DNA of 64,000 nt, taken from Xestospongia muta. Lineage: Eukaryota > Porifera > Demospongiae > Haplosclerida > Petrosiidae. The notes under the pieces are model-generated. The model did no database searches. It had not been told where the DNA came from and worked only from the letters and a program-made list of their open reading frames with translations. Made by a program: the position numbers and the translations under genes. Where the stretch lies: NCBI GenBank assembly GCA_963693285.1, contig OY848920.1, forward strand, positions 8,778,954 through 8,842,953. The letters run 5' to 3'. Of this stretch, positions 46,301 to 64,000 are shown piece by piece. Numbering within the stretch: the first letter of the stretch is position 1; every line of letters begins with the position of its first letter.

Positions 46301-49300
46301 CTTCTACTGCTGCTTTGAGCATAGCAGAGGTCCTTGATTATGAAACTGAACGGAGATCTTATACTTTAATAGTTCAAGCCAGTGACAGTGTCAACACGGC
46401 AACCGTCACTGTTAGAGTGAGAGTGCTTGAATCTAATGACAACGATCCTCAATTTATTAATCTACCCAATGTTACTTCCATTCTGGAATCTGCCCAAAAT
46501 AAAAGCTTTGTCTTCCAAGTTGTTGCCACAGATGTGGATACCAGTGTTAACGGTAAAATTGTATACACTCTTGACAATGATGAAGTTAGATTCACTATTG
46601 AGCCTGATACAGGAATTATTCGTGTTGCTGATAACGATCTCTTTGATTATGAAGCTGGCACTATTGAATACACAATTACTGTCACGGCAACCGATCAAGC
46701 TGGAACTCTTGCAAGTGGATCACGTGTTGCTGAAGACTCGAGCGGATTTGGTGTTCAACCTCTTGTTAATTTGAGCGATAGTGCTCGCAAATCTACAGCT
46801 GATTTGGTCATTCAGATTGAAGATGTCAACGACAATGCACCTGTATTCTCTCAAGATGCTTACAGTACTACAATAACAGAACATGACGTCAACACTATTG
46901 TTGTCATACAACTTGTGGCTACTGATTCAGACAAACCAAATACCAATAACTCAGCTGTCAGATTCACTATTGAAGATGGTGCTTTTGACCATTTCACCAT
47001 TGATTCTATATCTGGTGTTATCACAACTATCCCGCCCATTGATTCTGAAAATCGTTCTGTGTACCATTTGAGTGTAGTGGCGTACGATTTAGGTGAAGTC
47101 AGTTTGAGTACTACTGTGACTGTTACCGTAAATATACGTGATGCTGATGATGAAGCTCCACGGTTTACATCTGAGCTTTTTACTGGGTACATGACTGAGA
47201 ATACTGCTCCAGATACTTCTATTTTACAAGTGTATGCTAATGATTTGGACGCCAATGGGACAGGCGTTATTACATTTTCTCTCTTTGACCCTAATGGTCT
47301 CTTTAAAATCAATGCCTCGACTGGAATTATTTACACAACTTCTCTTCCAGTTGATCGAGAAGAAATTGCTAACATTACAATGAATGTTGTAGCCGAGGAC
47401 AAACAGGGATTTGCGGACACAGCTGTTGTTATGATTACAGTCAATGATGAAAATGACAATCCTCCAGTTCTCAGTCAGGAGACCTATATCTTTAATATAT
47501 CAGAAAATACTGTTGTGGACACCCTTATTTCCGGTATTACTGCCACCGATGCTGATACAAGCAGCAATGCTATAATTGACTATGATATTGTACAGAAGAC
47601 TGGTATTTCTGGTCGATTTACAATTCAATCTGGCACTGGAAAAATTGAAGTCGTCAATCCTCTCTGCTTCAGTACAACTAACCTTCAAACTTACACATTT
47701 ACTGTTACTGCTATAGACCCTAATAACAATCTCCTCAATGACACTGCTGCAGTGACAATTCTTGTTTACGAAGAAAACAAATATAGTCCTGTTTTTGCTC
47801 GTCCCTCGTATGTAAGTCGACTAGATGAACTAGCTACCAGTGGTACAGTTGTTCTTGAGTCTGTTGTAGCCAATGATGGTGATCCTTGTTCTGGTGGTCC
47901 TATTTATGCCATTCAGGATGGAAATGTTAATAATACCTTTTCAATTAATAGCGGAACTGGTCGTATTACGCTAACTCGTGACCTCACCGAAAACGATTTG
48001 TCTTTTACTCTCGTATTAAATGCTACAGATACAGGGAATTATCAAGCTCCCAATCGTGTCGGTACCGTCAAATTAATTGTCCTTATAGGACAACTCCTGC
48101 CAATTAAAATCATATCAGATGGAGCATTGACTGTCCCTACAATCTCTCGTGCCTCCCAAGACACTTACAGGCAAGACATATGGTTGTATGGTGGAGTCAA
48201 TAATTATGACTCACCTTCTGTTCACTATTTACTTGGTCCCACTGATGAAATTCAAACACTCACTTTTGATCCGCCATCTTTTGTGGAAAGTAGTATTGAT
48301 CCAACACTTGTTACTAGTACAGTATATAAAGATCGACCTGAGTTAATGGTTGCATTCCAAGTGGAAGGTGCAGGCTATGAACGTGTCGGTGTTGCTCGTA
48401 CTGAGTTGTTTATTCAAGTAGTTACTAATGGTATAGAAGATAACCTCAACGCCTCTTGCTTTACAGATCAATATCCTGGAAGTATATGTGTCGCCTCTGT
48501 AACTGTCCCAGATTTGTGGTTTGAATACATGGAAGTTCAGAAAATTGCTACCGTCTATTATGGTGTCTCACTTGATGATGTAGATCTAAATGAACTAGGT
48601 GATGTTGTTATTACCAGTCGGCTATCTTGTGGTGATACGGTCAGCTCCCCTCAAGTCACTGTAGTCTTACCATCTCAAGTGTACTATCCAGGAGAATCTC
48701 TGGAGGTCATTATCAAAGCCAATGCGCGTTATGACATACAAAACTTTCTTATTTCATGTGAACATGGAGCTGGACTCGTTTTTAATGACATTGAACCTGA
48801 GGGCAATTATGTACTATCCACAACTTCAAGTGATGCAGCTGTTTCTGTTAGTGGTATTAATATAAATCCTAGTGCTATTGATGTAACCAATGCAGAGCTT
48901 GAAACATTAGCCATATTGACGTACACTGTTAGTGATAGCTACTCCATTACAGACGAACAATACATAGATTTTCAGTGTACAATAGATTACCTAGTGAATG
49001 TTCGAAATGAAGAAGTCCTCGGTGATAGTCCAGCTGCTCATGTCAGTTTGAAAAATAAGTCTTCTTGCATTGCAGAAGGTGCTGGTGTTCTAGTTTCACC
49101 GTTATCAAAAGAGGTCATCTATTCGTATGTTGCTAGGGCAACACTTCTCAATTCTGTTGATCTTAACGATAAAAATGTTGCTATGAAAGTGTACACCTCA
49201 GCTGTCAATAGTAAGGGGATTGTTTACAATATTAGCAGTGGTCTAGAGTGTATCCCCACTGACACAAGTATCTTACAAGTTGATAACAATTGCAGTTCAG

Positions 49301-64000: not shown

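Follow-up and report, generated by a model that had tools for sequence, protein, structure and literature searches.

What are the large modules that interrupt the cadherin repeats of one very long reading frame in the sponge Xestospongia muta, and could they show where the TMEM132 ectodomain came from? The DNA examined, referred to here as the window, is a stretch of 64,000 nucleotides (C4:8778954-8842953) from a genome of 158 Mb assembled into 28 contigs, which is taken to be an animal genome because fibrillar-collagen C-terminal domains (nine matches) and Hedgehog signal domains (four matches) are present. On its forward strand a frame is open from about position 41245 to beyond the window's end; it measures 8283 residues from stop to stop and, counted from its first GTG, runs for 8195 residues until it reaches a stop past the window (L009). 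Within this single frame three full cassettes of about 1400 residues, M1, M2 and M3, alternate with cadherin repeats, each holding eleven domains in the order N, cohesin A, six bacterial-immunoglobulin-like domains (BIG1-BIG6), cohesin B, a dockerin-like pair of calcium loops, and a trailing domain X (the names cohesin A, cohesin B, BIG4-6 and X were coined in this analysis). A preliminary description of the window had proposed three such modules in one giant cadherin, and the copies indeed align end to end.

In pairwise blastp comparisons, M1 and M2 shared 25% identity over 1456 columns (E 9e-82), M1 and M3 22% over 1361 columns (E 3e-50), and M2 and M3 25% over 1025 columns (E 4e-48); two further cassettes, C1 and C2, from a cadherin-free gene on contig C9, aligned with M1-M3 at E 4e-27 to 8e-64. 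With M1 as query, the four real copies scored 183-275 bits (M2 275, M3 185), whereas 68 of 200 shuffled copies matched at all, the top score being 36.6 bits, and three cadherin stretches of the giant protein scored 33.1-36.2 bits. Domain profiles built from these five copies recovered the eleven-domain order in all five; such self-matches are circular, and matches to the related proteins P0002-P0016 are independent. The V-W-[YF]-P signature ascribed to each module in the preliminary description occurs exactly three times in the giant frame, each time closing BIG1 of one copy. Two of its details required revision: the last module ends at 63759 rather than at 63640, and the three full copies are followed by a shorter fourth, M4, with the TMEM132 part only, which starts past the window (position 1995 of L009, equivalent to window position 65041). 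M4 and the cadherin repeats preceding it were recovered in this genome as six matched pieces of L009, with intron-like breaks.

Cadherin repeats and Pfam Cohesin matches thus occur within one protein, the combination that characterises coherins, reportedly named by Nichols in 2012; the protein is very probably a coherin-type giant cadherin carrying cassettes. The four Hedgehog signal domain matches (PF01085) lie on contigs C12, C1 and C15 and none, one stretch past the window apart, on C4; the combination expected of a hedgling was not found here. Separately, a Hedgehog signal domain adjoining cadherin repeats was observed at C15:3043681-3049381 (minus strand), a hedgling-like arrangement with no match there to PF16070, the Pfam model of the fourth TMEM132 domain. 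This differs from the 2017 statement on hedglings (PMC6030884); introns or limited sensitivity could explain the difference.

Relation of the first half of the cassette to TMEM132

TMEM132 (A-E in human) was linked in 2017 to coherins, lefftyrins and hedglings, and choanoflagellate and sponge cadherins were described as holding the TMEM132 architecture (PMC6030884); because this has been published, its presence in the window is not in itself new. The cassette appears to share with TMEM132 the order of conserved region, cohesin and BIG1-3, and the giant protein would resemble coherins, lefftyrins and hedglings, as portrayed in that paper, in joining cadherin repeats to five TMEM132 domains in order; unlike the giant protein, TMEM132 has one copy and no cadherin repeats. 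The TMEM132 homology suggested in the preliminary description was borne out: Ig_TMEM132_4th (PF16070) scored above its cut-off in M1 and M2 and just below it in M3 (Table 1), a first scan of longer stretches having left the M3 domain, as well as the M1 and M2 cohesins, unlisted. Across ten cassette pieces, nine were matched by the TMEM132 fourth-domain profile and eight by the fifth, and the Pfam second, fourth, fifth and sixth domains were matched in some copies. Judged from these matches, the first part of the cassette, which comprises N, cohesin A and BIG1-3, is a homologue of the TMEM132 ectodomain. One cohesin per module had been described, following the Ig-like regions, as part of a TMEM132-like architecture; a real cohesin does stand there, but it is the extra, cellulosome-like cohesin B, and the cohesin in the TMEM132 position, cohesin A, precedes BIG1.

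Claims on fold use single-domain VIA-align rows, plus a LigA row for two domains. Cohesin A was recognised by fold alone, through VIA-align on the M2 model; M2 BIG2-3 resemble Leptospira LigA in the model, and part of N, the TMEM132 conserved region, is predicted to adopt a macroglobulin (MG)-like fold. The likeness of N to the MG domains of alpha-2-macroglobulin and complement concerns one domain only and is a shared predicted fold, no sequence match having been shown. Foldseek rows for the first-half model (nuclear pore, S-layer, protocadherin, complement) were long, poor alignments and were not used.

The LigA resemblance, together with Pfam Big_2 and Big-like, each of which matches two of the ten pieces, would also fit a cassette made of generic bacterial-Ig and cohesin repeat material that shares merely a fold with TMEM132. 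We regard this as very improbable in view of the nine and eight pieces matched by the TMEM132 profiles, and because PF16070 matches in this genome are confined to the two cassette genes, with none in 14 control genomes (those named are prokaryotes, a weak control for animals). A prokaryote scan with alignment A3 and one dockerin pattern likewise left, among the 585 matches listed, a single contig with a dockerin stretch alone, which does not exclude bacterial relatives; alignments A2 and A3 comprise seven stretches each, hand-picked for diversity from about 20 in the relatives.

Several results nonetheless weigh against the overall account of the protein and its domains. TMEM132_3rd had no match to cohesin A, its single match (0.018) falling over BIG2-BIG3, and no cohesin appeared among the 50 Foldseek rows listed for the first-half model. 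In the relative P0007, one of the eight fifth-domain matches (fourth copy, 0.13) falls over BIG3, and a PF16070 scan of that copy gave no match. A stray cohesin B match within cadherin repeats (residues 2011-2086, 5e-4) indicates that weak matches of small profiles are unsafe. The membrane anchor attributed to the giant protein is one suggested by the sequence of a relative. The idea that the fourth copy lies nearest to TMEM132, which came from a human motif, was dropped when Pfam scans disagreed.

Searches for TMEM132 elsewhere must be read with their sensitivity in mind. The PF16070 genome search missed M3, which a direct scan detects, so a diverged stand-alone TMEM132 could escape detection. 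An M2 protein query of the genome returned the giant gene and the C9 gene only, missing C2; the fifth-domain profile gave one genome match, in the C9 gene and below cut-off; TMEM132_3rd and TMEM132_C (PF15706) gave none in this genome or in the controls, which does not prove absence. Alignment A1, of the TMEM132-like part, gave two rows against solved structures (best E 0.44) and, in a protein search, none of 7992 scored candidates at E 0.001, so the tree described below contains no stand-alone TMEM132.

Relatives, a cadherin-free gene and the age of the copies

A first protein search, in which 665 candidates were scored, found eight proteins, all with cassettes. P0002, P0003, P0004 and P0006 share this three-copy layout, each copy running from N to X; of a fourth copy, the N domain was detected in P0002, P0003 (8e-4) and P0004, and the end of P0006 reads alike. 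The frame of P0007 continues through a fourth copy that consists of the TMEM132 part only: profiles detected its N, BIG2 and BIG3, and an alignment its cohesin A and BIG1. Two cadherin repeats can be made out by eye after it, and beyond them lie a transmembrane stretch and a tail. In P0008 the third and last copy stands just ahead of a transmembrane stretch. BIG4 or others of BIG2-6 were missed in several relatives, most in P0008, P0009 and P0012-P0016, and all eleven domains in every N-to-X copy were found, among the relatives, only in P0004, P0010 and P0011. With the cadherin-free C9 protein as query, seven further relatives were found at 41-96% identity; a precomputed Pfam list, itself incomplete, shows no cadherin domain in them.

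A tree built from 34 copies placed M1, M2, M3, C1 and C2 each in a single clade with support of 100/100, and the M1-M3 clades were recovered in a 25-row tree as well; the 34 rows exclude P0010, which nearly duplicates the C9 gene, P0004, which closely resembles P0003, and copies of 900 residues or fewer. The branching order among the five clades is weak (64/36, 81/92), and a long-branch warning applies to the pairing of C1 with C2. Because each gene position forms its own clade, the copies are old and their positions have been kept apart; the cassettes predate the split of the sampled lineages, with no homogenisation since.

The incomplete copies bear on which came first, cassette or TMEM132. 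The fourth copy of P0007 holds the TMEM132 part only, and in the second copy of P0009 BIG4-6 and cohesin B were undetected, yet dockerin loops and X are present; parts of the cassette can therefore come or go. Both copies would suit a history in which TMEM132 is the older form and BIG4-6, cohesin B, dockerin and X were added in the coherin line, a history to which we give somewhat less than an even chance, since all other judgeable copies hold both halves and the short ones may equally be losses. Conversely, as the preliminary description suggested, the TMEM132 ectodomain may have come from the cassette.

Cohesin B, the dockerin-like loops and their linker

The second part of the cassette (BIG4-6, cohesin B, the dockerin-like loops and X) is absent from TMEM132 as described in 2017. 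Pfam Cohesin (PF00963) scored above its cut-off for cohesin B in all three window copies, as the preliminary description had anticipated, and a cohesin fold is predicted for that of M2; integrins also appeared among the Foldseek rows for the second-half model, which were not used. Dockerin-like loops after the cohesin had also been noted beforehand; in M1, M2 and M3 alike, two aligned calcium loops follow it, each beginning and ending in an aspartate as in type I dockerins, and a profile built from ten dockerin-like stretches matched dockerins in the PDB. The loops are called dockerin-like because Dockerin_1 (PF00404) was below cut-off or absent in M1-M3. Its score in C1 was likewise below cut-off, and Pfam matched neither a cohesin nor a dockerin in C2 of the C9 gene; moreover, Dockerin_1 scores higher on a region of contig C1 (C1:33592723-33768837), where 180 kb contain twelve matches in short frames that are probably ordinary EF-hand genes. 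These results count against the overall account given below.

Cadherin repeats form a calcium-bound rod, and in cellulosomes cohesins and dockerins bind each other through bonds among the strongest known from bacteria. The giant cadherin could accordingly serve on the cell surface as a long tether that depends on calcium, in which the cadherin repeats would supply the rod and the cohesin B and dockerin of each cassette could bind, within one molecule or between neighbours, in a cellulosome-like manner, so that the cassette would act as a calcium-dependent latch or cross-link. As an overall account, we consider a coherin-type giant cadherin with cassettes as a latching tether likely; the calcium-dependent cohesin-dockerin latch itself we hold to be less likely than not. 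In scaffoldins and dockerin enzymes of cellulosomes the partners are arranged differently; here a single protein contains both, the cohesin first, then the dockerin and X.

Cohesin B and dockerin might instead be structural relics that no longer bind, with the cadherin repeats alone adhering. The last aspartate of loop 1 is lost in all eight C2-position rows, the third copy of P0007 is worn, the window copies score below the Dockerin_1 cut-off, and vertebrates have no detectable dockerins (PMC6030884). Across 40 rows, however, the end aspartates of loop 2 were kept in all 40 and those of loop 1 in 34 and 32, which leaves relics conceivable but in some doubt.

A furin-like motif, R-X-[RK]-R, was present in 12 of the 37 linkers that join cohesin B to dockerin, their boundaries being set by a rule applied to the profile matches; over 2000 rounds of shuffling, a mean of 0.89 linkers and at most 5 contained it. 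The motif was first noticed by eye and then counted on the same sequences, and related sequences weigh more than once in these counts, which total 22 in 2804 linker residues versus 10 in 91,051 other residues. Arginine and lysine make up 6.8% of linkers versus 4.0% overall, a difference for which the shuffles account. The 12 comprise all seven C1-position linkers, including that of the C9 gene in this genome, M3 of P0002-P0004, and the first copies of P0008 and P0009; the three linkers of the giant protein are without the motif, as is every M1, M2 and C2 linker. One further R-X-[RK]-R lies ahead of the dockerin loops in the second copy of P0009. We infer that a protease may cut at these sites. 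A joint reading would have a furin-type protease sever the ancestral cassette between cohesin B and dockerin, the two pieces being held together, or partners exchanged between molecules, by calcium-dependent cohesin-dockerin binding; TMEM132 of nervous systems would be the half remaining after loss of the cohesin B-dockerin half, the C9 gene a cut-and-latch form, and the giant cadherin a latch without a cut. We think this combination unlikely.

The locus and what the cassette may mean

Table 1. Coordinates of the cassettes, their domains and the cadherin repeats (window positions unless a contig is named)
Feature	Position	Strand	Match or remark
Cadherin repeats upstream of first cassette, within giant frame	41245..48090	+	PF00028 matches in this frame
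Cassette M1, 11 domains	48091..52329	+	
M1 N domain (TMEM132 conserved region / second domain)	48097..48612	+	PF23481 14.5 bits, below cut-off 27.6
M1 cohesin A (TMEM132-position cohesin)	48646..49068	+	fold via homology to M2 model
M1 BIG1, V-W-Y-P at end; Ig_TMEM132_4th	49066..49404	+	PF16070 64.8 bits, cut-off 27
M1 BIG2-BIG3	49408..50100	+	own profiles/alignment
M1 BIG4-BIG6, outside TMEM132 as described in 2017	50101..51054	+	
M1 cohesin B	51055..51513	+	PF00963 36.1 bits, cut-off 24.1
M1 dockerin-like calcium loop pair	51622..51807	+	Dockerin_1 none; EF-hand_5 14.7 bits
M1 trailing domain X	51808..52329	+	
M1-M2 spacer: cadherin repeats, 7 by eye	52330..54630	+	
Cassette M2, 11 domains	54631..58881	+	
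M2 part of N, predicted MG fold	54826..55128	+	
M2 cohesin A	55228..55641	+	VIA-align on model
M2 BIG1, V-W-F-P at end; Ig_TMEM132_4th	55639..55992	+	PF16070 44.7 bits, 1.3e-11
M2 BIG2-BIG3, LigA-like	55990..56655	+	
M2 BIG4-BIG6	56659..57630	+	
M2 cohesin B	57631..58113	+	PF00963 24.2 bits, cut-off 24.1; predicted fold
M2 dockerin-like loops	58171..58350	+	PF00404 15.1 bits, below cut-off 22.9
M2 trailing domain X	58351..58881	+	
M2-M3 spacer: cadherin repeats, 3 by eye	58882..59835	+	
Cassette M3, 11 domains	59836..63759	+	
M3 N domain	59839..60351	+	
M3 cohesin A	60355..60741	+	
M3 BIG1, V-W-Y-P at end	60745..61068	+	PF16070 26.5 bits, just below cut-off 27
M3 BIG2-BIG3	61069..61707	+	PF23486 17.4, PF23487 18.0 bits, both below cut-off
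M3 BIG4-BIG6	61711..62589	+	
M3 cohesin B	62593..63051	+	PF00963 25.6 bits (25.1 in longer stretch), cut-off 24.1
M3 dockerin-like loops	63070..63249	+	PF00404 15.6 bits, below cut-off 22.9
M3 trailing domain X	63253..63759	+	
Cadherin repeats after M3, on past window up to fourth copy M4	63760..64000	+	
Cadherin-free gene (L021/L022)	C9:4646834-4661587	minus	S/T/P/E-rich stretch of about 1900 residues, two cassettes (C1, C2), FN3-like end

Elsewhere in the window, positions 7130-14177 and 14206-21260 form a tandem gene duplication, with pieces 94-97% identical and a third, partial copy at 23739-24768; these genes combine cadherin repeats with seven-transmembrane exons resembling adhesion GPCRs (a label given by eye). 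Upstream of the giant exon, exon-like stretches at 35588-35992 and 36549-37483 match cadherin exons of those tandem genes at 89-93% identity, which points to recent copies shared with them. Also by eye, three related SET-domain-like frames lie in a row at 22091-22672, 25309-25788 and 26649-27284, and minus-strand frames at 2877-5949 resemble tetratricopeptide-repeat pieces of a TFIIIC subunit.

A bacterial origin has been proposed for the cohesin domains of coherins, as reported in PMC8164589. Further BIG domains, a second cohesin, a dockerin and X set the cassette apart from TMEM132 of the 2017 description, and a second cohesin and dockerin are undescribed for coherins and their kin in the main text of PMC6030884, whose supplement may show more. 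Among titles and abstract openings, nothing was found on the larger unit, on furin-like sites or on an MG fold in TMEM132, although Nichols 2012 or the supplement of PMC6030884 may hold part of it. Within those limits, no account was found either of the fixed gene positions or of the cadherin-free gene.

Little is understood of the molecular functions of the TMEM132 genes, which have been associated with hearing loss and panic disorder (PMC6030884). A repeated relative of TMEM132 with an extra cohesin-dockerin pair offers a concrete, testable idea of what the ectodomain may do and of a larger unit from which it could derive. The MG-like fold predicted for the conserved region can be put to the test as well. 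If cohesin and dockerin do bind in this animal adhesion protein, a very strong bacterial bond would gain a place in animal cell contact.
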